From the IMG/VR virus record IMGVR_UViG_3300007735_000685, positions 1 to 36,853 of that record: a stretch of 36,853 nucleotides of DNA. One strand, given 5' to 3'. The stretch's first letter is position 1. Every line of letters begins with the position of its first letter. This DNA comes from a virus. The notes under the pieces were generated by a model. The model saw only the letters and a list, made by a program, of their open reading frames with translations, had not been told where the DNA came from and did not search any database. Below, piece after piece: positions 12,376 to 29,450 of this stretch. The position numbers and the translations under genes were made by a program.

Positions 12376-12650
12376 CGTTCTTCCTTCAGCATAGATCGCA
12401 AATCAAGGATTTCCTGCCACAATCGAAGCATGGCAGAGTTTGCGGCTTTCACATCTTTGGTGATGTAGTAGTCGCGCTCACGCAACGGCGAATCTTTGTG
12501 GCGGCAATGCGCTACGCAACTGTCGATTTCGCTGTTTTCAATTCTGCCGTGATGGTGGAACTCCCTACAGAAGCCACACCAAAATCGAGTTTGCATTTCA
12601 CCATGATCGGTGACGAGAAATACGGGCCGGAGATCAAGTTCTGTTTTCAT
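12372..12650 (-). CDS. Putative zinc-binding small protein (92 aa)
   Basis: Potential metal ligands WCGFCREFHHHG (CxxC plus His) and DSCVAHCRH lie in the first half. A helix (AANSAMLRLWQEILDLRSML) closes the protein, echoing the helical motif of the next three genes. A zinc-ribbon-type nucleic-acid-binding role is possible. The ATG overlaps the stop of the gene upstream. Confidence 0.6.
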   Translation of the reverse strand: MKTELDLRPVFLVTDHGEMQTRFWCGFCREFHHHGRIENSEIDSCVAHCRHKDSPLRERDYYITKDVKAANSAMLRLWQEILDLRSMLKEER

Positions 12651-13102
12651 CGGTTTGCCTCCATTCGTTCAAGTGCGACATAAACCATGCCCACGGCGTA
12701 AGAACTCCATTCCTCCCGGTTGGCTGGCAGGGGGTCTCCGCCAATCGTGCCGTGCTTCCGGCAATGCGCGACGGCTTCGCGCACCATCGCAGCCGGGGCG
12801 AGAAGGATCGCGTTCCGCATCGCCTTGCGGTCTTGCTCGACTTCGTGCGTGTTCACGCCTTCCCATTGCGTGACGCGCGCGGCAGCCTTCTTCCTGTTGC
12901 GCCTAATCTCCCCCACGATTTCTTCGGCGGTCGCGTGGCTGCGCGAGAGCGTGGCGCGCATGGTCTTGCAGGCTTGCACGATGTCCTCGTGCTGAAACTC
13001 CTCCAGCACCTTCGCGGCCTCGGCGTGTTTCGCGCTGTCGGGATTTGCCCACTTGGAGCCGGGGAAGTATTCCAAAATGCTCACAGCAGTTTCGGTTCTC
13101 AT
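12647..13102 (-). CDS. Hypothetical helical protein (151 aa)
   Basis: The start was placed at ATG 13102 (MRTETAVSILEYFPGSKW), four bases after the upstream stop; longer in-frame starts lie inside the previous gene. The protein is predominantly helical with a basic middle (GEIRRNRKKAAARVTQWEG) and a C-terminal helix (SYAVGMVYVALERMEANR). The pattern MVREAVAHCRKHG and neighbouring replication genes hint at a DNA-transaction role, but no family is recognised. Confidence 0.6.
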   Translation of the reverse strand: MRTETAVSILEYFPGSKWANPDSAKHAEAAKVLEEFQHEDIVQACKTMRATLSRSHATAEEIVGEIRRNRKKAAARVTQWEGVNTHEVEQDRKAMRNAILLAPAAMVREAVAHCRKHGTIGGDPLPANREEWSSYAVGMVYVALERMEANR

Positions 13103-13106
13103 GGTG

Positions 13107-13901
13107 TTACTCCGTGCAATCGCAAGGCATTGTCGAATCACCATACTCATCAAATAGCCTTCCTTGTACCGTGACTTGCTGAAGCATGGTTTTGTAGTTG
13201 GGGCGATCTTTGCGGAATGTCCCACCTATTGCAGACTCTTGATTGATCCACCACGCCGCCCGAGTCGGATCATGCTCTAAAACTCGTTCAGTAGCGGCCC
13301 TGCTCTTCAAAAAACAAAGATCGCAATTTCCAAACGCTTGATCTCCATTCGGCAACATCAGGTCGAAGGGCGCAACTTTCCAATAGTCCATGACTGTTTC
13401 GCGGGTTGCTCTCGCATCAGCCAAAGGCATTTCAATGTCTCTGCTGGCATCTGCTCGCAACTTTGAAACTCGTCGCATCTCGTCATATCGCAATCCAATA
13501 ACCGTGGTGAAAACCTCATACCTCTGCTTCATCCACGCATTCATCGGCTTCACCTTCAAGTCGCTGGTGCAAAATCGCGCAACAGGATTTGGAAGGTAAT
13601 TTCGCTTTGCAATCAGCGACGCAAATGGTTCGCCATTTTTGCTGGAGGTGTGGTAGTTGACTTCAATGAATGGCGCATCTGCCCGATATTCAATCCATGT
13701 GATCGAACACCACCGTGTCTCAATCTCATGCACGAAGTCGAGCGTGGCTGGATGCTCGCGCCCGGTGTTCGCAAACAGGACATAACCGCCTTCAGGCATC
13801 GCACCGCCCCATGCGTCGAGGATCATTCGCAGCATATAGCCGCTGGTGCGACCGCCGCTGAAGGACACATAGAACGGTGGTTCGATCTTGTACGGGTTCA
13901 T
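13107..13901 (-). CDS. PP-loop ATPase / PAPS reductase-like protein (264 aa)
   Basis: The N-terminus has the PP-loop SFSGGRTSGYML (13-24), the ATP-pyrophosphatase signature shared by PAPS reductases, DndC-type sulfur-transfer enzymes and tRNA thiolases. A second family-like stretch is ARFCTSDLKVKPM near 108-120, followed by a cysteine pair in FGNCDLCFLKS and a terminal CDCTE. These Cys could bind a metal cluster. Phage members are usually annotated phosphoadenosine phosphosulfate reductase family, with no proven role; DNA sulfur modification, nucleoside modification or sulfur metabolism are possible. The ATG overlaps the initiator stop. The local DNA is less GC-rich than its flanks. Confidence 0.82.
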   Translation of the reverse strand: MNPYKIEPPFYVSFSGGRTSGYMLRMILDAWGGAMPEGGYVLFANTGREHPATLDFVHEIETRWCSITWIEYRADAPFIEVNYHTSSKNGEPFASLIAKRNYLPNPVARFCTSDLKVKPMNAWMKQRYEVFTTVIGLRYDEMRRVSKLRADASRDIEMPLADARATRETVMDYWKVAPFDLMLPNGDQAFGNCDLCFLKSRAATERVLEHDPTRAAWWINQESAIGGTFRKDRPNYKTMLQQVTVQGRLFDEYGDSTMPCDCTE

Positions 13902-14767: not shown

Positions 14768-15664
14768 TCATCCCACCGATTGACTGGATTGCAAGTCTTG
14801 CGTCCGTCCTGCCATGAGATCCTCGACCATTTGAATTCGCCGTCCTACCCACCGGGCTACCGGAACGCACCATGAGTTGCCGAGTGCCTTGTAACGCTTT
14901 GAATCCGTTGCACTCGGGATGTCTGTGTAGCCATCCGCAAATCCCATCAATCGCTCAATTTCCACAGGCATGAGCCATCGTGGATATCCGCGTGCGTCGA
15001 GTCGGAGCATTCCTTCTTCTGCTGCCATGTTGCAGCGAGCGACTGAACCGCGCGATGTAACGCATCCGACAATTTCATGCCCCTGCGGAGGTTTCGGCGT
15101 TCCATGCCCGCACAGGCTTTTGGAGTCATGTAGAACCGCTGCGGGATGTCGCCAGTCTCCAACACCGTTTCGATTGAAGCCCACGAGAAAGATTCGTCGG
15201 CGGGATTGAGGGACTCCGAAGTACCGAGCGTCCAGCACTCGGTAGCACCACCCATAGCCGATGTCGCCCAAGTGCCGGAGGAAGGTTCCCAAGTCCCGTC
15301 CTCCGTTGGAGTGCAAGGCTCCACACACATTTTCCCACACCAGCCAGCGAGGGCGTAGCCATTGAGCAAGTCGCAGATACTCAAAGGCCAGTTGACCACG
15401 AGGATCGGAAAATCCTTTTCGTTTGCCGACAGTAGAGAACGCTTGGCAGGGTGTTCCGCCTGCCAAAAGAGCGACGGTTCCGGGTTCAATGTCCCATCGT
15501 TCATGTTCTAACAGGCTCCCGTAGTTCTTGACTGATGGGTAGTGGTGTTCAAGCAACTTGCAGCAAAATGGGTCAATTTCAGATACACCGACACATTCCC
15601 AACCAAGCGGTTTCCACGCAACGGTCGCTGCTTCGATGCCGCTGCAAACGCTCAAGTACCTCAA
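14768..15664 (-). CDS. DNA (cytosine-5) methyltransferase (298 aa)
   Basis: Methylates cytosine C5 in DNA, most likely to protect the phage genome from host restriction. Motif I is CSGIEAATVAW (7-17), motif IV GGTPCQAFS with the nucleophile C73, motif VI ENV (111-113), motif VIII QSRRR (153-157), and motifs IX-X include LMGFADGYT and LGNSWCVPVA (261-270). The target-recognition segment between about 165 and 235 is short, so the specificity cannot be predicted. Translation starts at TTG 15664, overlapping the upstream stop (TTGA). No restriction partner is next to it, which favours a solitary protective methylase. Confidence 0.93.
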   Translation of the reverse strand: MRYLSVCSGIEAATVAWKPLGWECVGVSEIDPFCCKLLEHHYPSVKNYGSLLEHERWDIEPGTVALLAGGTPCQAFSTVGKRKGFSDPRGQLAFEYLRLAQWLRPRWLVWENVCGALHSNGGRDLGTFLRHLGDIGYGWCYRVLDARYFGVPQSRRRIFLVGFNRNGVGDWRHPAAVLHDSKSLCGHGTPKPPQGHEIVGCVTSRGSVARCNMAAEEGMLRLDARGYPRWLMPVEIERLMGFADGYTDIPSATDSKRYKALGNSWCVPVARWVGRRIQMVEDLMAGRTQDLQSSQSVG

Positions 15665-15987
15665 GAGCCATCTCCCAACGATTGCAGGCGTTCTGTGGTT
15701 TTATCAATGAATCCCCGCACATCGTCTAACCACGCCTGCCGATCCTTCGGCGAGCGGTAGAACGAGTGCGCGGCCTGCTGCATCGTGAGCGCGGTAGCCG
15801 CCGTGCAGCCGATCAGTTTTGCAATACCCGTCGGCGTTGCGTTCGTGTAGTTGTGCAGCGCGTCGTAGGCGAGCCGCCGCGCGGCGACGGCATCTTTGCC
15901 GATGCCGGAACCCGGCTGCGGGAATTCAAATCCACGCGCCTTGAGTGCGGCTTCTACTGCGGGAACGACGATGGAAGGTGCGTACAT
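15661..15987 (-). CDS. DnaA domain IV-like DNA-binding protein (108 aa)
   Basis: Residues about 31-75 (KDAVAARRLAYDALHNYTN, then TPTGIAKLIGCTAATALT) resemble the C-terminal helix-turn-helix domain of DnaA, which binds DnaA boxes: an opening Arg-rich helix, then a helix pair around the IAKLIG turn. It lacks any ATPase domain. Small phage proteins of this type may bind origins or compete with host DnaA. It is two genes upstream of the DUF1376 initiator, which supports a replication role. The exact DHTTV-type DnaA signature is not present, so the match is moderate. Start ATG overlaps the upstream stop (TGATG). Confidence 0.6.
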   Translation of the reverse strand: MYAPSIVVPAVEAALKARGFEFPQPGSGIGKDAVAARRLAYDALHNYTNATPTGIAKLIGCTAATALTMQQAAHSFYRSPKDRQAWLDDVRGFIDKTTERLQSLGDGS

Positions 15988-16502
15988 CAGGAGACTTTCA
16001 GGTAGGGTTGCTTCGGCACAAGGTACGCGAACGGCAGGGTTTGCCCCTCGTCAATCGCGGCGCGGATCGCGTCCTTGTCCGGCGTGATCTTGATTTCCTC
16101 GCGCGTGAATTCCGGCGGCACATCGCCGACGATCTCTAGCGCGGGCTTGCCTCCCGGCATCGCAACCGTCGCTCGCCAGCGCGAACATTCAAGAGTCTTG
16201 AACCCTTCTGCCTGCATGACGCGCAAGACTTGGCCCTTCATCCACGCCGCTACGGCCTCGTCGCGCTTCGCCCGCTGGCGCAGCCGCTCGGCCTCGGCCT
16301 TGCGGGCTTCCGCGCGTACTTCGATCTCGCGCACAAGGGAAAGCACCTCGTCCACGCAGGCGGGCAGGCTCTCGGCCTGCCTTGCGAGGATGTCAAAATG
16401 CCCGTCCATGTCGGCGGTAAGTTCGCCCTCGCTGTCGAGAAGCATCGCCTCAAGTTCCCGGGCCGCGCCCGACGCTTCGTAAAGTCGCTGAATGGTTCCC
16501 AT
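15987..16502 (-). CDS. Gp157-family phage protein (171 aa)
   Basis: Siphovirus Gp157 family, named from Streptococcus phage Sfi. The start MGTIQRLYEASGAARELEAM, the long Ala/Glu/Arg coiled coil (about 50-95), the KGQVLRVMQAEGFKTLE segment and the ending with DVPPEF, TPDKDAIRAAID and LPFAYLV all fit. The family clusters with recombination and replication genes and is thought to influence phage development or resistance, but its biochemistry is unknown. ATG 16502 is preceded by AAAGGA at good spacing; longer in-frame starts have no such site. Confidence 0.85.
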   Translation of the reverse strand: MGTIQRLYEASGAARELEAMLLDSEGELTADMDGHFDILARQAESLPACVDEVLSLVREIEVRAEARKAEAERLRQRAKRDEAVAAWMKGQVLRVMQAEGFKTLECSRWRATVAMPGGKPALEIVGDVPPEFTREEIKITPDKDAIRAAIDEGQTLPFAYLVPKQPYLKVS

Positions 16503-16524
16503 TGTTGTCCTTTCGTTTTGAGGA

Positions 16525-16833
16525 TTACGCGGCACACAACACAGCAATGTCGGCCTGAAGTTTGAGCGAGGGATGAAACTTGCCACCCCACCGAACCTCT
16601 TCAACAGTCATCCACGCAGCAACCCGCATCGAATAGGCTTTGCCAAACTCATTTCCAGCAACATCAACCCGAATAAATCGAACCGTGACAATTTTGCTTG
16701 TGGCATTGCAGCGAGCGTTCTTTCGGATCGAAATCTTGCGATCAACACACTTCCATCCGGCCACCGCACTTCCATTCGTGCGCTCCATGCGATTCTTGTA
16801 GACGGTTCCAATTTCAAACTTGATGTCGCTCAT
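16525..16833 (-). CDS. Hypothetical protein (102 aa)
   Basis: Not recognised. It starts MSDIKFEIGTVYKNRMER after a clear AAAGGAAA ribosome site. It is basic with beta-strand character (WKCVDRKISIRKNARC, KIVTVRFIRVDVAGNEF), ending with a helical stretch. The local DNA is AT-richer than flanking genes, perhaps a separate acquisition. A candidate promoter lies at 16921-16948. Confidence 0.65.
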   Translation of the reverse strand: MSDIKFEIGTVYKNRMERTNGSAVAGWKCVDRKISIRKNARCNATSKIVTVRFIRVDVAGNEFGKAYSMRVAAWMTVEEVRWGGKFHPSLKLQADIAVLCAA

Positions 16834-17008: not shown

Positions 17009-17905
17009 TCAGAACGGGATTCCGTCCTCGGGCGGCACGGTCGCCGCCTCGGGCTGCGGGGATTCTACCGCCGTTCGCAGGCCGTAGAGCGTCCAGCCGT
17101 ACTGCCCCTCCTGAATGAACGCTTCGACCTTCTCGCCACCCATCGCGTCCTGTGCGGCCTGCATCAAGTTCTGATCGAAGCACGAAGCCCATTGTTCCGC
17201 GTTGTCGGCCGTGCCGAACAGGATCGGCCACCGCTGGCCCCCCTTCGCGGTCGGCTTGCCCTGCCCGATCTTGCGGACGGTCAACCCCTGTCGCCAAGTG
17301 CAGTCTTTGGCTGGCCGGGATGCCATGACCTCGTTATACGCGCTAGGAGCCGCCGGGGCTCGTTCCGGGGCCGGGGTCGGGGTCGGAGCCGCCTTCGGGG
17401 CCGGGGCGGCCTGTGGGGCATCCTGCGCGGTCTGACGCGGCGCGGGGGCCGGACGGGCCGGGGCCGGAGCAGACTTGCGCGGCTCGTAGGTGCGGTCATC
17501 GCGGCGATCCATCTCGGCTTCGTCCTCGCGCGGCACAAGCAGCAGGTCGCGCAGGTAGTACCCGAGGCTGGAAGTCAACGCGCCAGCCAACGCCTTGTCG
17601 AGCGGTCGCCCCTTCTCCGGGATCGCGGGCCAAGTCACCTCGTCGCTCGCCGACTCGCCGCTGGCCGCGTGGGTGAGGATGAAGGTGCTAGTGACAACGC
17701 CGCCCTCCGGCGAGCCATCGAACTTCCACCCGGCCCGGCGCACAGCCAGCCCCGCGCCGTGCAGCACTTCGCGGCAAGCGGAAATCATGCCTTCCGCGCT
17801 GACATACGAGTAGTGATGGAACGAATTCTTCGCGTCCTTCGTCACGCTTGGAAGGGCGCGCTGCGCCGCCAGCAGGGCGGCCGAAAGTGTCTTGGTGTCG
17901 CTCAT
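17009..17905 (-). CDS. erf: ERF-family ssDNA-annealing recombinase with SSB-like C-terminal domain (298 aa)
   Basis: Anneals complementary single strands in phage recombination. Start ATG 17905 (MSDTKTLSAALLAAQRAL); longer in-frame starts run into the gene before. Residues about 1-140 form the ERF domain (cues: FHHYSYVSAEGMISACREVL, AGALTSSLGYYLRDLLLVP). Residues 141-188 are an Ala/Pro linker. Residues 189-280 form a beta-rich domain with OB-fold character (GLTVRKIGQGK, RWPILFGTAD, KVEAFIQEGQYGWTLYGL). The last residues, PPEDGIPF, resemble the acidic tip of bacterial SSB (DDDIPF), which recruits repair proteins. No separate SSB gene is recognisable in the genome. Confidence 0.85.
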   Translation of the reverse strand: MSDTKTLSAALLAAQRALPSVTKDAKNSFHHYSYVSAEGMISACREVLHGAGLAVRRAGWKFDGSPEGGVVTSTFILTHAASGESASDEVTWPAIPEKGRPLDKALAGALTSSLGYYLRDLLLVPREDEAEMDRRDDRTYEPRKSAPAPARPAPAPRQTAQDAPQAAPAPKAAPTPTPAPERAPAAPSAYNEVMASRPAKDCTWRQGLTVRKIGQGKPTAKGGQRWPILFGTADNAEQWASCFDQNLMQAAQDAMGGEKVEAFIQEGQYGWTLYGLRTAVESPQPEAATVPPEDGIPF

Positions 17906-17941
17906 GGGTGTCTCGTTTCTCCTGCGAAGGTGCAGGCCGTC

Positions 17942-18493: not shown

Positions 18494-18521
18494 TTGACAT
18501 AGGCCGAAGATGGGGTATCAT
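18494..18521 (+). promoter_or_regulatory. Rightward early promoter
   Basis: TTGACA (18494-18499), 16-base spacer, TATCAT (18516-18521), a near-consensus sigma70 promoter. Transcription would begin near 18528, at the base of a perfect hairpin, and runs into the small-gene operon starting at 18580. Confidence 0.8.
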
Positions 18522-18527
18522 GGAAGC

Positions 18528-18544
18528 GTGGTCGGGGCGACCAC
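18528..18544 (+). other. Hairpin at the 5' end of the rightward transcript
   Basis: GTGGTCG GGG CGACCAC forms a perfect 7-bp stem starting at the predicted transcription start. A stem at the very 5' end commonly protects phage early mRNA from decay. A GAGGAG ribosome site follows before the ATG at 18580. Confidence 0.55.
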
Positions 18545-18579
18545 ACCGAGCGGCCCGGACAGGCCGAGGAGATACCAAG

Positions 18580-18780
18580 ATGCGAGACCTGCTTTACAAA
18601 GTCACGGGAACGATCATGGGCAAGCGGATTACGGAACGAGCGCAAACGCTTGAAGAAGCGCGAGCCATTGTCTGCGATCTCGACACGGGCAACATTTGGT
18701 ATTTGAGCGTGCTTGGTCGCGTGCGCGTAGAGACTCGCAAACAGGCCGTTCGCAACAGCGAGAAGGGCGGTACGCGATGA
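18580..18780 (+). CDS. First rightward early protein, hypothetical (66 aa)
   Basis: Not recognised. ATG 18580 lies seven bases after GAGGAGA; an upstream in-frame ATG at 18520 overlaps the promoter and is discarded. The product MRDLLYKVTGTIMGK continues with a TERAQTLEEARAIVCDL helix and a strand-rich middle (NIWYLSVLGRVRVET), resembling a small beta-alpha-beta fold. Its stop overlaps the next start (ATGA). Confidence 0.7.
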   Translation: MRDLLYKVTGTIMGKRITERAQTLEEARAIVCDLDTGNIWYLSVLGRVRVETRKQAVRNSEKGGTR

Positions 18781-18968
18781 GCCGCACGATCACCCTGAAA
18801 CTGACGCAGAAGGAAGCCGATGCGCTTTGCCACGCTGCCGGAAACAGCCTGAACTCCGATCAAGACGATTTGATTGGGTTGTTCAATGAGGATCAAACCG
18901 CGATGCTGGCTGCCGTGCGAGCGTTGAAAAAGTTGCGCGCCGCAATCAATGCAAGAGGTGCGCGATGA
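18777..18968 (+). CDS. Hypothetical helical protein (63 aa)
   Basis: ATGA-coupled to both neighbours. MSRTITLKLTQKEADALCHA begins with a strand, as in ribbon-helix-helix-like or small antirepressor-like proteins, then helices (AMLAAVRALKKLRAAINAR). No family is recognised. Confidence 0.65.
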   Translation: MSRTITLKLTQKEADALCHAAGNSLNSDQDDLIGLFNEDQTAMLAAVRALKKLRAAINARGAR

Positions 18969-19312
18969 AGCCCCTCACCATTCGCGGAACGGTCGATCAG
19001 TTGGTGAATCACAGCCAATGCGACGATTACGAATTGTCGCAGCGCATCCGGCAATGCTGCGACGCGGCGTTCCTGCTCGGCGGATTGCTGCCCTCGCAAT
19101 GCGAAGCCATTCACATCCTGCGAGCCGCCTACCGGATTGAGGATGAGGCGCGGGAATGCGTTCGCAAGTGGCAGGGGCGCGGCCCCGGCCCCGAGGTGGA
19201 GGATGCCGAAGCGGCTGCGCTCGACGCAGCAGACGCGGTAGCGGAAGCGGAGGATCGGTTCCTTCGCCTGTGCGGAAAACTCAAGTTGGAGGTTCCCGAT
19301 GTCATCAAGTGA
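18965..19312 (+). CDS. Hypothetical acidic helical protein (115 aa)
   Basis: Starts MKPLTIRGTVDQLVNHSQCD, with six cysteines through the chain and an Ala/Glu/Asp-rich helix near the C-terminus (EDAEAAALDAADAVAEAEDR). No membrane segment or signal peptide. Overlaps its downstream gene by 14 bases. Function unknown. Confidence 0.65.
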   Translation: MKPLTIRGTVDQLVNHSQCDDYELSQRIRQCCDAAFLLGGLLPSQCEAIHILRAAYRIEDEARECVRKWQGRGPGPEVEDAEAAALDAADAVAEAEDRFLRLCGKLKLEVPDVIK

Positions 19313-19541
19313 CCGAATCGAACTGAAGGCAGAGCGTGGATGCGCGATCTGCCGTGGGGTGGGCGAATTCAACGAAAGCCACGGCCCCGGCCTCTCGGAA
19401 CGCATGGTCTGCGACTGCGTGTTCCGAAACGCGCCACAGGATGCGACCAGCCAAGCGCGGATCGACGCGGGCGAATTCACCATCGTTTCCGACCTGCCGC
19501 CGGAGCCGCAAAGCGCAATTTGGGAGTACGGCGATGAGTGA
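19299..19541 (+). CDS. Small zinc-knuckle-like protein (80 aa)
   Basis: Contains CAICRGVGEF and MVCDCVF, i.e. a CxxC and a CxC pair 27 residues apart, with the CxxCxGxG form typical of DnaJ-type zinc fingers. It may bind nucleic acid or protein. Ends by overlapping the next start. Confidence 0.65.
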   Translation: MSSSDRIELKAERGCAICRGVGEFNESHGPGLSERMVCDCVFRNAPQDATSQARIDAGEFTIVSDLPPEPQSAIWEYGDE

Positions 19542-19752
19542 ACGCATTCGCACAATCCCCATGCGTTCGCCGCTGGATGATCGCCGAAACGGCTTTCATT
19601 TGCTCAATGCGCGCGGCCCGATCCGCACGATGGAACAAGTCGCGCAACTCACGGGGTTGACGTTTGAGCAGGTGCGCTATTGCGAGGAAACGGCGTTCAC
19701 GAAGATGCGCGCAGCCTTGAGCGCATGGGGCTATCACAAGGAGCGCGCATGA
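19534..19752 (+). CDS. Sigma factor region 4-like HTH protein (72 aa)
   Basis: Residues 31-62 (RTMEQVAQLTGLTFEQVRYC then EETAFTKMRAAL) align by eye with sigma70 region 4: the HTH reads as IAxxLGxTxERVRxxExxAxxKLR. Only this -35-binding type module is present, without the rest of a sigma factor. Such mini proteins could bind RNA polymerase or promoter -35 boxes and redirect transcription. It lies inside the rightward early operon, coupled on both sides, as expected for an early regulator. Confidence 0.7.
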   Translation: MSERIRTIPMRSPLDDRRNGFHLLNARGPIRTMEQVAQLTGLTFEQVRYCEETAFTKMRAALSAWGYHKERA

Positions 19753-20012
19753 CCGCCAACGAACTGTTTTGCTTCCTTTGTGACGAGAAGTGGGATGATC
19801 TTTCGCACGAAGAACAGGAAATCGTTGTTCGCGTGATTACGGCTTCAAACGCCGAAGGGGATGCGATGAACGATGCGTGGAATCGCTTTCAACGGCTGGA
19901 TATTCCGCTGAAGGATTTCCATTGCGACCGCTGCGCCGACGCGCGAGCGGAGCGCGAGGAAGCGGAAGCGGAAATGATTCGTTGCCTCGGACACCTGTGG
20001 GGAAAGAAATGA
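19749..20012 (+). CDS. Small protein with two CxxC pairs (87 aa)
   Basis: MTANELFCFLCDEKWDDLSH has CxxC near residues 8-11, and FHCDRCADA supplies a second CxxC near 58-61, followed by a Glu-rich helix (REEAEAEMIRC). The two pairs could hold one zinc ion. Function unknown. Starts by ATGA overlap. Confidence 0.65.
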   Translation: MTANELFCFLCDEKWDDLSHEEQEIVVRVITASNAEGDAMNDAWNRFQRLDIPLKDFHCDRCADARAEREEAEAEMIRCLGHLWGKK

Positions 20013-20437
20013 CCTACCGAGACACCAGCCGAGCGGCCTACGCGACGGCCAGCATTGGAGAGAACGAGCAGCGCGTACTTGAGTTTGTGCAGACCGCCGG
20101 GGCGCACGGGGCGACCTGTGACGAGGCGATAGCGACGCTCGGTCTACCGCATCAATCCGCTAGCCCCGCCTTCACCGGGCTTGAGCGGAAGGGCTGGCTG
20201 GCGCGCACCGACCGCCGCCGCAAGACCCGAACCGGAGCCGAAGCCGCCGTTTATGTTTTCACGGAACCCGGCACTTTGTTCTCAAGCCCGAAGGCAGGCC
20301 GTGCCGATTTATACCGAGCCGTGGTTCGCGCAGCAATTCGCGCGAGGCAGACAGGGGATTGGATGGCGTTCGATTCGGCCTATGGCGCGTTGCCGCAGGC
20401 CGAGCGAAAGCGAATCATCAACGGAGACACCCGATGA
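20009..20437 (+). CDS. Putative winged-helix DNA-binding protein (142 aa)
   Basis: Residues about 15-75 follow the winged-helix pattern of MarR-like regulators: NEQRVLEFVQTAGAHGATCD, then recognition-like HQSASPAFTGLERKGWL, then a wing with basic residues (DRRRKTRTGAEAAVYVF). The C-terminal part is helical. It may control phage or host genes, possibly at the repeats in 18395-18446, but that link is only a guess. Confidence 0.65.
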   Translation: MTYRDTSRAAYATASIGENEQRVLEFVQTAGAHGATCDEAIATLGLPHQSASPAFTGLERKGWLARTDRRRKTRTGAEAAVYVFTEPGTLFSSPKAGRADLYRAVVRAAIRARQTGDWMAFDSAYGALPQAERKRIINGDTR

Positions 20438-20628
20438 CAACTCTGCACCTGACCGAAAACCAACTCACCTTCCTGCGAACGCAACTGCAACTGTTTGCGA
20501 TGAACAACCCGCGCGACAGTTGGGAGGCCGAAATCATTCTTGAGTTGCTCAAGCCTGCGATCCCGAGCGTTCGGCAGCAGTTGGAATCCGTGTTTGCCGA
20601 CCTCTACCCCGCAGGAGGCCGCGAGTGA
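20434..20628 (+). CDS. Hypothetical small helical protein (64 aa)
   Basis: MTTLHLTENQLTFLRTQLQL continues as a mostly helical protein (SVRQQLESVFADLYP). Coupled by ATGA and GTGA overlaps on either side. No family recognised. Confidence 0.6.
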   Translation: MTTLHLTENQLTFLRTQLQLFAMNNPRDSWEAEIILELLKPAIPSVRQQLESVFADLYPAGGRE

Positions 20629-20753
20629 GCCAGCGCGCACAAGACCCGCACTACCTCGACTTTTGGTTGGGGTTTGCGTTCGGATCGCTTGGCGTTGCCG
20701 CGTTCATCGCGGGAGCATGGGCTAATGGATATCTTCGGAGCCTGATCCCATGA
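20625..20753 (+). CDS. 42-residue membrane protein
   Basis: GTG start overlapping the previous stop (GTGA), with an AGGAGG ribosome site eight bases before. The product has a single hydrophobic helix from about residue 13 to 35 (FWLGFAFGSLGVAAFIAGAW) and a short soluble tail. It ends in an ATGA overlap with the next gene, so both junctions support it. The role could be a host-membrane effector; it is unrelated in sequence to the 45-residue protein at 7347. Confidence 0.65.
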   Translation: MSQRAQDPHYLDFWLGFAFGSLGVAAFIAGAWANGYLRSLIP

Positions 20754-21058
20754 CCCCGGCCGATACCGCGCTCGACATCCTGAACACCATTCCCGAGTTT
20801 GTTCCCTGCTGCGATCACAAGCAAGAGATATCCACTCGCACGATGGCCGCGCTGCGCGATGCTGTTCGTAATGCGGTTGAGGAGGAACGCTTGCTGCATG
20901 GTCTGCTACATCGCCTGCGCCCGCTTGCAGAAGCGCACTACAGCCGAATGCAAGGCGAGGCGGACGCAAACCCCAACACCGTTACGGAACATTGGGTTGG
21001 ACAGGCTCGGGAAATCGTTCACAGCATCAACGCGCGGATAGGAACCCCAAATGATTGA
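20750..21058 (+). CDS. Hypothetical helical protein (102 aa)
   Basis: MTPADTALDILNTIPEFVPC then long helices with His/Arg-rich RLLHGLLHRLRPLAEAHYSR. No recognised domain. Its 3' end overlaps the next gene by 8 bases. Confidence 0.6.
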   Translation: MTPADTALDILNTIPEFVPCCDHKQEISTRTMAALRDAVRNAVEEERLLHGLLHRLRPLAEAHYSRMQGEADANPNTVTEHWVGQAREIVHSINARIGTPND

Positions 21059-21524
21059 AGTGCTTGTTGGCAGCGTGATTGTCGCGCTTGTGTTGTGCAT
21101 CCTCATCCTGCTATCGCAGCGCGAGCCAGCCATGCGCGTAATCTTGCCGGGCGATCCAATGCACCAGCAAGGCGCATCGATGCTGGAGCATTCAATCCCC
21201 GCCGAGGCAACTCACGTTGCTTGGATCATGCACGGAGAGGGCGAGGCTGGACGGGTGCATACGCTTTACCTCCAAGACCTTCAATCCCTGCGCCGTGAGG
21301 TGCTGGAATCGCAGTCCGCTTGGGGACCGATCATCGCTACCTCGCTGGAGTTGGAATGCGATATTCGTTCGCGGGGCTGCGTACCCGTCAGCGAAATCCT
21401 GTACGTCATCGCTCGCGTTGACAATGACGGTACAGAACGGTGGCTATCGCGCTCGCGCACATGGGTGGAGCGTTGGCACGGAGAAGCACAAATCTACGAA
21501 GTGTTTCCGGGACAGACGCGCTAA
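21051..21524 (+). CDS. Membrane-anchored hypothetical protein (157 aa)
   Basis: A hydrophobic helix at 4-22 (VLVGSVIVALVLCILILL) has no cleavage-like site and looks like an anchor. The remaining 135 residues are mixed alpha/beta with many charged residues (HVAWIMHGEGEAGRVHTLYL, SEILYVIARVDNDG). Last coupled gene of the rightward operon; a terminator follows at 21583. Confidence 0.65.
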   Translation: MIEVLVGSVIVALVLCILILLSQREPAMRVILPGDPMHQQGASMLEHSIPAEATHVAWIMHGEGEAGRVHTLYLQDLQSLRREVLESQSAWGPIIATSLELECDIRSRGCVPVSEILYVIARVDNDGTERWLSRSRTWVERWHGEAQIYEVFPGQTR

Positions 21525-21582
21525 CCCGCTACAATCCATCACGCGGAGCCGCCCCCCAATACGCTCCGCAGTTGGTGTCTCT

Positions 21583-21618
21583 CCCCGGTTGCCTAATCCG
21601 CAGCCGGGGATTTTCTTT
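21583..21618 (+). terminator. Rho-independent terminator of the rightward operon
   Basis: CCCCGG with GCAG-CCGGGG forms a stem (21583-21588/21604-21609, extended by TGC/GCA) followed by ATTTTCTTT. It lies 60 bases after the last coupled gene, matching the end of the early rightward unit. Confidence 0.75.
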
Positions 21619-21629
21619 ATGATTCCTGC

Positions 21630-21923
21630 ATGGCAAGGATGCCGCGACCCAAAGCCCCGCCCGACCTGATCGCAATGCTGGATGACACTTGCTTCCTGTT
21701 GAGAGAACGCAGCCAGCCCGACCTAGCGGGCGATCTTGAAGCCCTCTACGACGCAATCCGCACGATGCTGGAACTGACTCGACATGGCGACTGCCTGTTC
21801 GGTGACGAGATCCGAAACATCCTGCAAATCCGCCACGCGCTCCGGCCGCGAAGAGGCACAGACCTCGATCCCATGCGAGGCAAGCGCAAGGCGCGGCGCA
21901 GCCGCCGACGCTCGTTCAGATAG
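21630..21923 (+). CDS. Hypothetical basic protein downstream of the terminator (97 aa)
   Basis: MARMPRPKAPPDLIAMLDDTC begins a helical protein whose tail is strongly basic (GKRKARRSRRRSFR), suggesting nucleic-acid binding. It has no clear ribosome site and lies after a good terminator, with 8 bases of tail-to-tail overlap with the leftward gene. It is likely read only at low level, and might not be real. Confidence 0.5.
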   Translation: MARMPRPKAPPDLIAMLDDTCFLLRERSQPDLAGDLEALYDAIRTMLELTRHGDCLFGDEIRNILQIRHALRPRRGTDLDPMRGKRKARRSRRRSFR

Positions 21924-24317: not shown

Positions 24318-24634
24318 GCCCCGACAACTCCAGCAGCCACAAGGCTCAAACTCGTGTCATCCTGCGCGAAGCCGCGAAGTTGGTGACCGTCCGGCACAAG
24401 CACATTCGACAGCGTGACGAATGAGTGCGCGCCAACATCGTAGTTGAACAACAGGTAGTCGCCGTGCGCCAGCGCAGCCGTACCGCGCACAACGCCAAGA
24501 GTGCAATTCTTTGTACTACCCGTCGCGTTGCAAATCGTGAGCGTCTTGAAGAACAGCGCAGCCCCTTCAAGGCCTGTGCAAATTGGCGTTTCGACCGATG
24601 TCAGCGCAAATCGGACTAAGGAAGGCTGGCTCAT
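24314..24634 (-). CDS. Hypothetical tail-region protein (106 aa)
   Basis: MSQPSLVRFALTSVETPICT then beta-strand-rich segments (KTLTICNATGSTKNCTLGVV, DYLLFNYDVGAHSFVTLSN). Small all-beta proteins in this place are often tail-tip accessory proteins. Joined by ATGA overlaps to both flanking genes. Confidence 0.65.
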   Translation of the reverse strand: MSQPSLVRFALTSVETPICTGLEGAALFFKTLTICNATGSTKNCTLGVVRGTAALAHGDYLLFNYDVGAHSFVTLSNVLVPDGHQLRGFAQDDTSLSLVAAGVVGA

Positions 24635-27576
24635 GCCCCCATGATATCGTCAACAATCTGCGAGTCGGTCGGCTTTGCCGTACCCGAAACACCCATGTAC
24701 GGCCACGGGCTAGGCGCAAGCGTGAAGGTCGAACGGGCACAGGCGACATCCACACCCGGCGGCGCGAACAGGTAGTAGGAGGTGAACCCCGCGCGGTTGA
24801 ACACCTCGTAGCAGATTCCGTACCCGGCTGGCGCGGTCGGGTAGACCTGATCCAGCGGCGTAACGCCATCCGATGCGGTGGCCTTGAACTGAAGTTCCGT
24901 GCCGTCCCAAGCGATGCTCGGAGCCATTGGCTGCCCGTTATCGCTGCGGTAGTTCATCTCGCAGATATTCAGGGCGTAGCCCTCGGCGCGGCCCCAACCC
25001 AAAGCATCCTGCTGCGCGAAATACATGGTCGCGGCATTGATGTCCGGCACAACCTCGACAAACTTGTAGAGGTAGATGAACGGAAGGTCGCCGGGATTCG
25101 ATGACGATTGGAGCGAAGTGCTAATCTGCGTGGCTGGCTCAAAGCGGCACAGGAACGCGCGCTTGATGTTGTTCGACTCGCGGCGGCGAACGGTGATGTT
25201 CTGCGTTCCCGTCATGGTGAACGCGGTGACATTTGGCCCGCCCGAAACGCGCTTGACCGTCGCCCCGTGCGGATAAAGCAGCGGGTGCGTGTTCTTGCCG
25301 GACAGGCGATACCTGACCGTCATCGTGGAGTCAAAACCGAACTCGACCGTTTCGTGCTGCAAGCCCACCGATGGCGTGTGCGACCGTTTGTTGCCGCTCC
25401 AATAGGTCGGCGGCATTCGGTTGCATACAAGGTCGCCATCAACAACCGCCCGCAGGCGGGCCATACGCTGCTCGTAAATCGTCCTGCGCTTTAGCAGGGT
25501 CACGGCAAGCCTATCGACACTCGTAGCCGTAGGATCGCTTGGCGGGCGCGTAATGCTGCCGCTGGAGGTGCTAACCGGGTTCGCCTTGAATGCCATCGCC
25601 AGCGAGCCAGCGGAATAGTTCCACGGCGCATATTCGTAGAACTGCGCTGCCGTGGACTGCTGGCCGCCCATGTTGCCGGGAGCCGTTCCAAGTCCGAAGG
25701 TGGTGAATTGCCGACCGTAGACATCCTGCCGCTCTCCGGGGAGCGACACAATCGGCGTACCCGGCGGATAGTACGAGCCGATGAAGGCCGGAATGTGATC
25801 CTTGATTTCAACCGACAAGTGCGCCGGGGTCTGATCGCTCGTGTGCCAAATCATCGGCGACCGAGTGTTTAGGCCCGTCACGAACTTCGTGCTAATGAAC
25901 CCGCCCTCGGTCGTTGCGCTGCGGCAGTCAACGAAGTGCGCGTAGGTTTCAAGATCGTCCAGCGTCTTGGCATCGCCATCATTGCCGTACTCATACGGGC
26001 CGATGGTCGAGCAATACACAGACTCATGGGACACGATGACGGTGCGAGGAACGTCAAGCGTCAGGCTATTGATGTAGCCCGCAACGCGATGAACCTCCAT
26101 TTGCTCAAGCCATTCTTTCAGGCTTGGCGTGTCGTACTTTTCTGACTCTAGCGCGGCCAATTGAAGCATGAGCGTGGACGCTGAACGATCCCACACCCAC
26201 ACCGCGCCAATGCGCTGCGCCAGCGCATCAAGTGCCTGCCCAACGCTCATGCCCCGAAAGTCGAGGTTCACAAGGTCGCCATCATCGACCAGCGGCACGG
26301 GCGAAGCCGCAACGCTCGCATCCCAATTGATGCGGCTCAACTTCAACCATCCTTGACTCATCCGCTCAACGGTCGATGCGAACTGCTCTAGGATTTCGTC
26401 AAGCCCGTAGGGAACCTGCACATGAGTCGGCGCAGCAGCAAGATTCGCAATCGGGATTGCGCTGCTGTTGATCGTGCCGGAATTGTCCGGGTCATTGTTG
26501 AACGTGCCGAACCCGACCTTGCTGACTGCTGGCGGATACAGATAGGTCAGTTTCACCGTCTGCGCCTCAAACGCAATCGGCGTTTCGGCAAGCATATTGA
26601 AGCAGCCCGACGCGACCGGGCCACCCACGACGCGGTTGCCAGCGGCATCCTTGAAGAAGCCGTCTACCGTGCCGCGCCCGACAATCTGCGACATGGAGTA
26701 CGCCCCGAACAGGCTTTGCAGCGCGTAGCGGTAGTCCACGAACTCAATCACGAATAGCGCGTGATCGCCCAACCGGGGCCGCCCGTTTTCCTGCACCTCG
26801 GGCTTCGCGCTTGCGCTGCGTCGAAGTTCGCGGATGGAAGTCGGAATGAGGTGATTCCAATGCATCCAGCGCGGCGTAGTCGAATTGAGCGGAGTGATAG
26901 ATGAGGCCGTACCGGTCGATCCGGTTGAACCATTGCCCGCACCGGTTCCCGTGTTCGGCCCCGATCCGTTTCCGCCGCCGCCGATCTGTGTACCGTCACC
27001 GCCTCCACCCGCAAGCGCAAGCGTGCGCGATCCCTTGCCGCCGACGCTTTCCGCGATTGCAGTCAGTCCGCTTGCGGTCACTTCGTCTTGACGCGCTCCC
27101 GTTCCATAATTGACCGCGCCGCCCACGGCCGTATCGGATACGGTTTGCTTTGCATCCGCTGTAACGCCCTGCCCCTCGCCGCCACCCGGATTCAAGTTCT
27201 CAAAGTCCACGTCAAAACGTGTCGATGGAATGATGGATGGCAGCGGCAGCGGGTTTGGCTGGATCGGGTTGTAGTAAACCGGGGTTTCGCCCCCCTGCGG
27301 CTCAAGCAGCCACAGTTCCCAAAGGTTTGAGTTCGCGTCGAACGAAGGGAACGTAAACGCCGGAACCACGCCCGGATCATCTGCGCCCGTCGAATACACC
27401 AGCACCTTGATACGCGCGTGGTCAGACGCACCAACCAGCGGCGTGTAGGCACAATTGATCTCCGAAGGATCGTAACCCGCCTCAACAAGCAGGGCATCAA
27501 TCTCGGGAGTGCGTCGAACAATGAACCGCGCAAGGTTCGGCTTCGCATCTCTGATATAGCCAACGATGCCCGCCAT
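24631..27576 (-). CDS. Large tail-tip / hub protein (981 aa)
   Basis: Start ATG 27576 (MAGIVGYIRDAKPNLARFIV) overlaps the stop of the upstream gene as TAATG; a longer in-frame reading back to 27813 lies within that gene and is rejected. A Gly-rich linker at about 160-235 (GGGGDGTQIGGGGNGSGPNT) divides a smaller N-terminal domain from the main part. The remainder has many aromatic and beta-rich stretches and a segment with SVGQALDALAQRIGAVWVWD that is reminiscent of the hub part of tail proteins. By size and order (after the tape-measure candidate and another long tail protein) it is the best candidate for tail hub or tip protein. No enzymatic motif seen. Confidence 0.75.
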   Translation of the reverse strand: MAGIVGYIRDAKPNLARFIVRRTPEIDALLVEAGYDPSEINCAYTPLVGASDHARIKVLVYSTGADDPGVVPAFTFPSFDANSNLWELWLLEPQGGETPVYYNPIQPNPLPLPSIIPSTRFDVDFENLNPGGGEGQGVTADAKQTVSDTAVGGAVNYGTGARQDEVTASGLTAIAESVGGKGSRTLALAGGGGDGTQIGGGGNGSGPNTGTGAGNGSTGSTGTASSITPLNSTTPRWMHWNHLIPTSIRELRRSASAKPEVQENGRPRLGDHALFVIEFVDYRYALQSLFGAYSMSQIVGRGTVDGFFKDAAGNRVVGGPVASGCFNMLAETPIAFEAQTVKLTYLYPPAVSKVGFGTFNNDPDNSGTINSSAIPIANLAAAPTHVQVPYGLDEILEQFASTVERMSQGWLKLSRINWDASVAASPVPLVDDGDLVNLDFRGMSVGQALDALAQRIGAVWVWDRSASTLMLQLAALESEKYDTPSLKEWLEQMEVHRVAGYINSLTLDVPRTVIVSHESVYCSTIGPYEYGNDGDAKTLDDLETYAHFVDCRSATTEGGFISTKFVTGLNTRSPMIWHTSDQTPAHLSVEIKDHIPAFIGSYYPPGTPIVSLPGERQDVYGRQFTTFGLGTAPGNMGGQQSTAAQFYEYAPWNYSAGSLAMAFKANPVSTSSGSITRPPSDPTATSVDRLAVTLLKRRTIYEQRMARLRAVVDGDLVCNRMPPTYWSGNKRSHTPSVGLQHETVEFGFDSTMTVRYRLSGKNTHPLLYPHGATVKRVSGGPNVTAFTMTGTQNITVRRRESNNIKRAFLCRFEPATQISTSLQSSSNPGDLPFIYLYKFVEVVPDINAATMYFAQQDALGWGRAEGYALNICEMNYRSDNGQPMAPSIAWDGTELQFKATASDGVTPLDQVYPTAPAGYGICYEVFNRAGFTSYYLFAPPGVDVACARSTFTLAPSPWPYMGVSGTAKPTDSQIVDDIMGA

Positions 27577-29450
27577 TAGCCCTCCGCGACATCGCCGGAT
27601 TCGTAATCGTTGCCGATGTAGTCTTGCCGCTGCACCGTGCCGTCCTTGTTCTCGCGCAAGTCCATGCGATTGTTGCCCGTGACGGGATGACGGCCCGTTG
27701 GGATGCTTGTCGGCGACCAAACCACGCGCGTGAGCGTACCCGAAGGCTGGCCGTCGCCGTTTGCTGCGAACGGAATGCCGGAACTCGGCGAGAAGGTGTT
27801 CGGGCTGTTCCAAACCGAAACCTTGATATCCCGTTCCGCATGAATGGCAAACAGCCTGTTTCCGCTTGCATCCGGCGGCGCGTCATTGATCACGGTCTTT
27901 TTCTTCAGCACCACAAACGCCTCACCGCACTTGGGCCACGGAATCGGCATTGTCGCATCGCGGGTGATCATGTCCACCTCTTGATGAATCACGACTTCCG
28001 GCAAGGCAAATTGGAATCCGTACTGAATGCCCCAGCCCATCGGCATGATGAAGTTGTTGTTGGTTTCCTCATCAATGTACTGCGATGACTCGTAATGAAC
28101 GACCTTCTTCGCATCTTCATCCAACTGCGGATCAGGCTTATTGTCCGCTGGCTTTGTGATTTTGTTGCCGTTGGAACTTTCCAGCGGTTGAGGTGTTGGG
28201 GTTTCCTCGGTGACAACATTAACCGCATTGTCTCGGATAGTCGGCACATAATAAGACCATGAATCGATTGATGTGCAGGGATCAAAACGAAATTTTGGCG
28301 CGATGCTTTTAAATCCCCTTTGATTTTCCGTTCCATACGGGTCTCTTTCAATAAACTGCTGCCCCGTATCAGTCGGCCTCGCGAACAGAACATAGTAAAG
28401 CCATTCATCTGTGGAACCTTGAGGCTCAAACTTTGCTGCTGTTGGAGTTCCAAGCGCGACGATTTCAAGACCAACCTTATTCTGCTTCAGAAGCGATGGC
28501 TCGCTAATCTTGAAACTCTGAATGATGTCGGGATAGGGCGGCAGGAATCGAATGCGCGTGAGCGCAACATCCACGCAGGACATGAACAGATCATTCATGT
28601 TCCTTCCGGGCCGCCCAACCAATTCAATTCGGAACCTCTTCGTTCCCTGAAAATTAGAATCCGAGATTCCTCGTTCATAATCAAACGAGCCATCGCCGTC
28701 GTATGCTGGAGTGGGAATGTATTGGTTTAGTTGCGTGTCCTCGATTTCAAATGCAAGTGTCAACTGATCTGCCGAGACATAGTAATTTTCGCGCGTGCGC
28801 TGGTAATTATTCGGGATGTCTCCGGCAATCAATCGTCTATATAAATCCGCATTGTTCGGAAGATTGGTCGAAGCCAATCCCCCTGTTGGATTTAAAGGAT
28901 TGCCGTATGGATTGAAAGAATTGGTGGAGGCAGATTGTTGAGTAACAAAAGTTGTTGGTACGCTATTTGCGGCTGAAACTCGAATAAACCCGCGTCGCGT
29001 GATTGTTACAGCCCCCTCGGCATTGATTGTGTGCGTTGTTACTTGTTCAAATCGCTGAATACCCGTTGAACCACATTCAAACCAATTGAAGGTGAATGAG
29101 ACGAGGAACGCCGCTGTCGCGTTGTTGCCAGCAATTTCGGTAACGGAAATTTCGGGCAACGGGCCATTCTTGGAGTCAACAAGCGCATCAGCACCGTTGG
29201 CGAGCGTTGTCCATGTTCCGGCACCGCTCTGATCCTCAAATTGAATTTCAATTTTGCGGCCCGGCCGAGTGAGCGTTTCCTTTACGGATGCAAGCGTGGT
29301 TGCAAAAGCACCGCGCAAAATGCCGATGCCCTGCATGGTGTGCTTGCGCCCCGTTCGATTGAAGTTGTCGCTTTCAAATTCGTTGACGGTCGCAAACGAA
29401 AGAATCTTGACATTGGAAAGTTCAAGATCGTTGTACTTTAGTTTTGCCAT
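27576..29450 (-). CDS. Large tail protein (624 aa)
   Basis: Start ATG 29450 (MAKLKYNDLELSNVKILSFA) overlaps the upstream stop (TAATG). The first 150 residues look like a distal-tail-like beta domain (RPGRKIEIQFEDQSGAGTW, TAAFLVSFTFNWFECG). The middle and C-terminal parts are irregular with many Asn/Pro. From about 28140 to 29450 the DNA is clearly less GC-rich than its flanks, hinting at a different origin. Likely a distal tail or tip component. Confidence 0.72.
   Translation of the reverse strand: MAKLKYNDLELSNVKILSFATVNEFESDNFNRTGRKHTMQGIGILRGAFATTLASVKETLTRPGRKIEIQFEDQSGAGTWTTLANGADALVDSKNGPLPEISVTEIAGNNATAAFLVSFTFNWFECGSTGIQRFEQVTTHTINAEGAVTITRRGFIRVSAANSVPTTFVTQQSASTNSFNPYGNPLNPTGGLASTNLPNNADLYRRLIAGDIPNNYQRTRENYYVSADQLTLAFEIEDTQLNQYIPTPAYDGDGSFDYERGISDSNFQGTKRFRIELVGRPGRNMNDLFMSCVDVALTRIRFLPPYPDIIQSFKISEPSLLKQNKVGLEIVALGTPTAAKFEPQGSTDEWLYYVLFARPTDTGQQFIERDPYGTENQRGFKSIAPKFRFDPCTSIDSWSYYVPTIRDNAVNVVTEETPTPQPLESSNGNKITKPADNKPDPQLDEDAKKVVHYESSQYIDEETNNNFIMPMGWGIQYGFQFALPEVVIHQEVDMITRDATMPIPWPKCGEAFVVLKKKTVINDAPPDASGNRLFAIHAERDIKVSVWNSPNTFSPSSGIPFAANGDGQPSGTLTRVVWSPTSIPTGRHPVTGNNRMDLRENKDGTVQRQDYIGNDYESGDVAEG

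Follow-up and report, generated by a model that had tools for sequence, protein, structure and literature searches.

A phage ERF annealing protein with a predicted OB-fold domain and an SSB-type C-terminal tip, a module also carried by RecT-type annealases

The C-terminal tip of the bacterial single-stranded DNA-binding protein (SSB) requires its last Phe for partner binding (PMC10164576), and the SSB of phage HK620, when shortened by its six terminal residues, has been reported to stimulate its annealase tenfold less (PMC5928155). Among phage single-strand annealing proteins (annealases), lambda Red-beta is described as needing a helical C-terminal domain (CTD), a three-helix bundle, for binding host SSB (PMC8303780). 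A helical C-terminal domain is reportedly common to several annealase families, which has been taken as domain shuffling, and in Firmicutes phages erf is described as mostly adjoining ssb, with Gam or Gp157 neighbours (PMC8093625). A survey covering 10,280 predicted annealase structures (PMC11783212) uses none of the terms SSB, OB-fold and fusion in its main text, and our searches of the openly licensed literature turned up no account of an annealase that combines an OB domain with an SSB tip. Here we describe such a protein, encoded in a 36,853-nucleotide stretch of viral DNA (positions 1 to 36,853 of IMG/VR record IMGVR_UViG_3300007735_000685; the whole stretch is hereafter the window). It consists of an ERF annealing core, a linker rich in Ala and Pro, a predicted OB-fold domain and a tip resembling that of SSB. 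The phage nature of the record is indicated by matches to portal, large terminase, scaffold and head-tail connector proteins.

We regard this architecture as nearly certain. The gene is a complete 298-aa open reading frame (ORF) on the minus strand, running from ATG to TGA, and its start codon is backed by a Met at the matching position in relatives. The ERF profile PF04404 covers the N-terminal part of the protein with 40.9 bits (E 2.6e-10; Pfam cut-off 25) and is the sole Pfam family found on it up to E 10, and PHROGs assigns the protein to phrog_155, Erf-like annealing protein (E 1.3e-18). A sequence-only reading of this DNA had placed an ERF annealase here, with the coordinates right and the strand unstated, and both profiles agree with it. 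The plus-strand reading of the same interval is open too but does not resemble ERF, and was rejected. By profile the protein belongs to ERF, and its presumed annealing activity is taken from the family. Of the 48 linker residues, 16 are Ala and 14 are Pro, a composition that bears out the Ala/Pro linker proposed earlier, and both ERF- and RecT-type relatives have a similar linker ahead of the OB domain. A beta-rich domain of about 90 residues and then a terminal EDGIPF follow, just as the sequence-only reading had them.

The C-terminal domain is predicted to adopt an OB fold. An AlphaFold2 model, built on 14 aligned C-terminal sequences (A1), places strands at residues 17-28, 39-46 and 52-57, a helix at 60-69 and further strands at 74-81 and 86-94, which is OB topology, with a mean pLDDT per ten residues of 77-87 across model residues 11-90. 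Model residues 96-107, directly ahead of the tip, fall below a pLDDT of 50 and are predicted to be disordered. The top Foldseek rows include human SSB (E 2.1e-3), the OB domains of Teb1 and Rpa1, and Bartonella SSB, and VIA-align gives Z scores of 9.5 for PriB, 9.4 for the mitochondrial SSB Rim1, 8.9 for SSB and 8.7 for RecO. Structure prediction had been named beforehand as the check on the OB fold, and the model and both structural comparisons support it. The domain is a predicted beta barrel and not a helical C-terminal bundle as in Red-beta. In BFVD, the model of a 'Bet' protein (A0A6J5MKR6) matches the OB model weakly (E 9.6e-3).

The end of the protein is well conserved among its relatives. 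Ile-Pro-Phe is strictly kept, with loosely conserved acidic residues nearby; the sequence-only reading had hung on conservation of the final Phe and acidic residues in homologues, and this is what the relatives display. All 27 proteins first collected (the window protein and 26 relatives) end in IPF, as do 25 of the 26 distinct complete OB-bearing proteins, and three of four more distant OB relatives obtained from the RecT scan (L195, L200 and L229) end in IDEIPF. Among 23 distinct ends, the codons show synonymous change for Ile (ATC in 15, ATT in 8) and for Pro (CCG in 18, CCA in 5), and the Phe codon is TTC throughout. In L049, IPF is kept with a domain 43% identical to the window OB and a variable stretch ahead of the tip. 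As a control, [ILV]PF ends were sought in 501 distinct ORFs, each 100 aa or longer, from the loci then collected, and were present only in OB-bearing annealases, the ERF protein L160 and two SSBs (PF00436). Because such ends are limited to annealases and SSBs in this set, the tip is more than chance.

The same OB domain and tip are also found behind a different annealing core. L013-L016 and L081 carry them behind RecT (PF03837; E 2.4e-31 for L013 and 5.1e-32 for L081, with L014-L016 assigned by profile), and the window protein itself matched only ERF and no RecT core. In an OB tree with 23 rows, supported branches impose two changes of the RecT label; a single RecT origin occurs in 0 of 200 bootstrap trees, and L013-L016 are nested within an ERF group with a support of 99/100. 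The history of this tree includes at least two core exchanges, the second being less sure than the first because L049 and L081 are long branches. Downstream of the annealase, 15 of 15 ERF-OB loci and four of five RecT-OB loci have homologues of a Gp157/Gam-like gene and of the small gene after it, g15987, the fifth RecT-OB locus (L099) ending at the annealase gene; neither homologue was found near the annealase in the six other ERF loci compared, which are tip-less or have other tips. Since the RecT-OB and ERF-OB proteins share a genomic slot and its neighbours, the annealing core was exchanged in place, with the OB domain and tip retained. That RecT-type annealases have the module as well goes beyond the sequence-only reading, which rested on one sequence.

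The family of OB-bearing relatives is narrow. Searches of the phage and plasmid collections with the whole protein and with its OB domain found no relative, matches of E about 1 or more being set aside, and of two scans of a bacterial genome collection the first returned none and the second only L106. This relative lies on a 3910-base contig in a Nitrospiraceae bin, a weak host hint given that short contigs frequently land in the wrong bin, and the contig is too short for a host to be named. When complete distinct proteins were counted by their ends, IPF was present in 18 of 18 proteins with ERF and OB and in 4 of 4 with RecT and OB, and an SSB-like end in 1 of 23 other ERF proteins (L160) and in 0 of 5 RecTs from cultivated phages. 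L160 (= L161), an ERF protein from position 1501 with ERF as its only Pfam family, has a cysteine-rich, zinc-ribbon-like part and ends in MDDLPF, and thus bears a tip without an OB domain. L074, counted among the 23, is an annealase of the window-type group (from position 2501) that appears to be frame-broken. L227, a RecT protein from position 858 with a divergent OB of the window-type family, offers a natural test case for the role of the tip.

Other C-terminal parts are found on both cores. Four ERF proteins (L053, L069, L061 and L130) carry another domain, the A9 type, and their ends are EILF, EILF, DGLF and DLGF. The best model of this domain is also OB-like with a pLDDT of about 90, although only two of the five models are confident; VIA-align was also run, and the best Foldseek match is the OB of LEF-3 (E 8.2e-4). 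The two OB types did not match when compared as profiles (A4 vs A9), leaving homology unsupported, and when relatives of the A9-type domain were sought, only its own contig came up. The RecT census covered the best 80 of at least 487 relatives, ranked by likeness to the window group, which biases the proportions: 23 of 73 complete distinct proteins have an [ILVM]PF end, 21 of these 23 have at least two acidic residues among their eight terminal ones, and most carry C-terminal parts other than the window-type OB. RecTs whose other C-terminal parts look beta-rich from sequence (L178, L179, L181, L182, L184-L189, L191, L192, L194, L198, L201 and L202) have ends that include DADDLPF, DGSDLPF, DDEVPF and DDLSMPF. 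Synechococcus phage S-H1 encodes a tip-less RecT and, one gene further on, a separate SSB ending in DEDVPF.

On balance, we favour the view that the window protein is a phage annealase with a built-in SSB-like module, acting as an SSB look-alike hub. The ERF core would anneal complementary strands, as expected of its family, and the OB domain on its flexible Ala/Pro tether would most likely keep single-stranded DNA (ssDNA) near the core. The IPF tip would most likely dock in the SSB-reading pocket of host RecO, RecG, RecQ, PriA and the like, and the annealase might thereby serve on phage ssDNA as an SSB look-alike hub, with no helical CTD binding host SSB as in lambda Red-beta. The earlier suggestion that one protein may cover ssDNA, anneal it and attract host repair enzymes is plausible. 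More broadly, and here our judgement is evenly divided, annealases bearing SSB tips may form an unrecognised, repeatedly evolved class in which the helical SSB-reading domain of ERF or RecT proteins is replaced by an SSB-imitating module (an OB or other domain with an IPF or LPF tip). One protein would then do the work of an annealase-ssb pair and plug into the host repair hub, and the module would be inherited as a unit while the cores are exchanged. The contrast between SSB reader and SSB mimic draws on the literature, because a search of the helical C-terminal part of tip-less ERFs against solved structures for a relation to the Red-beta CTD gave only chance-level matches.

Several observations weigh against an SSB-like role. 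PF00436 (SSB) did not match the window protein in a search up to E 10, and when solved structures were searched by sequence and by profile, neither the protein nor its C-terminal domain drew more than chance matches. AB5 toxin subunits are also among the top Foldseek rows, the VIA-align Z scores of SilF (10.3) and a pertussis toxin subunit (9.8) are as good as or above those of SSB-type OBs, and a shared OB fold by itself is no demonstration of ssDNA binding. The net charge of the OB domain is near zero (-2 to +2), the window tip holds only two acidic residues, and the OB relative L227 has no tip, its stop coming right after the last OB strand. The contrast in ssb genes also fades when related annealases are collapsed: at 70% identity it is 0/12 vs 12/64 (p 0.19), and at 60% identity p is 0.56. 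Before collapsing, PF00436 was present in 0 of 46 tip-bearing and 14 of 91 tip-less records (Fisher p 0.003). This table took 138 records, most of which may be fragments, and dropped L242 (cut); left out of it were L190 (cut), L074 (frame-broken look), L105, L106, L159, L162 and L166, as well as any locus duplicating a counted record. The absence of ssb in tip-bearing phages, not significant after collapsing, is suggestive only. For the window, the claim that no SSB gene is recognised elsewhere held up: PF00436 has no match in the record, which may be incomplete, and PHROGs names none of the 47 other window ORFs as SSB, with unrecognised SSBs still possible.

The tip might instead dock on a phage partner from the same cassette, such as Gp157, the DUF1376 primosomal protein, RusA or the exonuclease, and not on host proteins. 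The presence of Gp157 and g15987 in all 19 OB loci reaching them (15 ERF, 4 RecT), against none of the six tip-less or other-tip ERF loci, is consistent with this, but tips are also borne by ERF and RecT proteins outside the window-type group (the comparison of cassettes covering the window-type OB loci and these six) and resemble the general SSB tip, which is read by host proteins. We consider a phage partner unlikely. Less probable still is that the acidic tip acts within the protein, competing with ssDNA for the OB or the ERF core as proposed for SSB tails, with recruitment secondary. The disordered stretch ahead of the tip would permit such self-regulation, and PMC5928155 cites evidence that the tail of E. 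coli SSB binds weakly to the DNA site of the same protein; strict Ile-Pro-Phe with loose acidic residues, however, fits docking in a pocket better.

We give very little credence to a decoy role, in which the tip would titrate host SSB-binding proteins (e.g. RecO or RecG) off phage DNA. An abundant phage protein with a short free tip could conceivably do so, but the tip is always joined to an annealing core and, in the window-type family, to an OB, which would be superfluous for a decoy. Equally improbable, in our view, is a coincidence of descent, with IPF kept only through close kinship and an OB that has no SSB role. The narrowness of the family and the lack of any SSB relation in sequence searches would agree with it, whereas the retention of the tip at 43% domain identity, the same ends on unrelated C-terminal parts and the specificity of [ILV]PF among the 501 ORFs argue against it.

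If the annealase does act as an SSB look-alike hub, the annealing core and the SSB interface would be modules that evolve separately from each other, and this in two annealase families. Access of phage annealases to SSB-coated DNA and the host restriction of many annealases limit recombineering, and a self-borne SSB-type tip may offer a direct handle on whether the tip governs partners and activity in laboratory strains.

The coordinates of the annealase and its cassette partners are collected in Table 1. Homologues of Dcm and DUF1376 are often next in OB-bearing cassettes, and no PHROG or Pfam match was found for g15987. The recombination/replication cassette of the window also includes a PAPS-reductase-like gene (PF01507; 13107-13901, minus strand) and a cytosine-methyltransferase-like gene (phrog_116; 14768-15664, minus strand). 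Another gene without a PHROG match (12647-13225, minus strand) recurs in the cassettes of relatives, as does g15987. Small ORFs at 18520-21923 (plus strand), nearly all without a PHROG match, point away from the annealase operon, and a 1060-aa ORF without a PHROG match occupies 24631-27813 (minus strand).

Table 1. Features of the annealase gene and its downstream partners (positions in the window)
Feature	Positions	Strand	Basis
ERF-OB-tip annealase, complete gene	17009..17905	-	298-aa translation, family matches, 21 relatives
ERF annealing core, aa 9-128	17522..17881	-	PF04404, phrog_155
Ala/Pro linker, aa 139-186	17348..17491	-	composition
Predicted OB-fold domain, aa 189-279	17069..17341	-	AlphaFold2 model, Foldseek and VIA-align, alignments A1, A4
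SSB-type tip EDGIPF, aa 293-298	17012..17029	-	IPF conservation in relatives
Possible ribosome-binding site AGGAG	17919..17923	-	13 bases ahead of start codon; read from letters
Gp157/Gam-like gene, downstream cassette partner	15987..16604	-	PF05565 E 2.4e-24, phrog_253
g15987, conserved small gene after Gp157	15661..15987	-	in same 19 loci as Gp157

Compared with known systems, the window protein is like the ERF family (PF04404; phage P22 Erf) in its core, which scores above the curated cut-off, and in its Gp157/Gam-like neighbour, as described for Firmicutes erf modules (PMC8093625). The usual ERF relatives found here differ from it in having short, helical-looking C-terminal parts and no tip. 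With bacterial SSB (PF00436), it shares a predicted OB fold, a flexible stretch and an acidic tip ending in IPF, but it has no sequence match to SSB and its OB lies at the C-terminal end of an annealase. Phage T7 gp2.5 is likewise a single protein that has an OB fold, anneals DNA and carries an acidic tail whose last residue is Phe, and it is not known to have a separate Rad52-type annealing core. Like Red-beta and RecT, the window protein joins an annealing core to an apparently SSB-related C-terminal module, and the window-type OB and tip are also borne by RecT cores; the CTD of Red-beta, however, is described as an SSB-binding three-helix bundle (PMC8303780), whereas the window protein has a predicted beta domain with an SSB-like tip. 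Because it fails the SSB sequence test, we do not file it as an SSB, despite its likeness in predicted fold and tip, and liken it instead to an SSB-annealase pair. In the annealase-ssb gene pairs described (HK620 Sak4 with SSB, and the erf-ssb modules), the annealing protein works with an SSB tail (PMC5928155, PMC8093625); those pairs are two genes, and the window encodes one fused protein.
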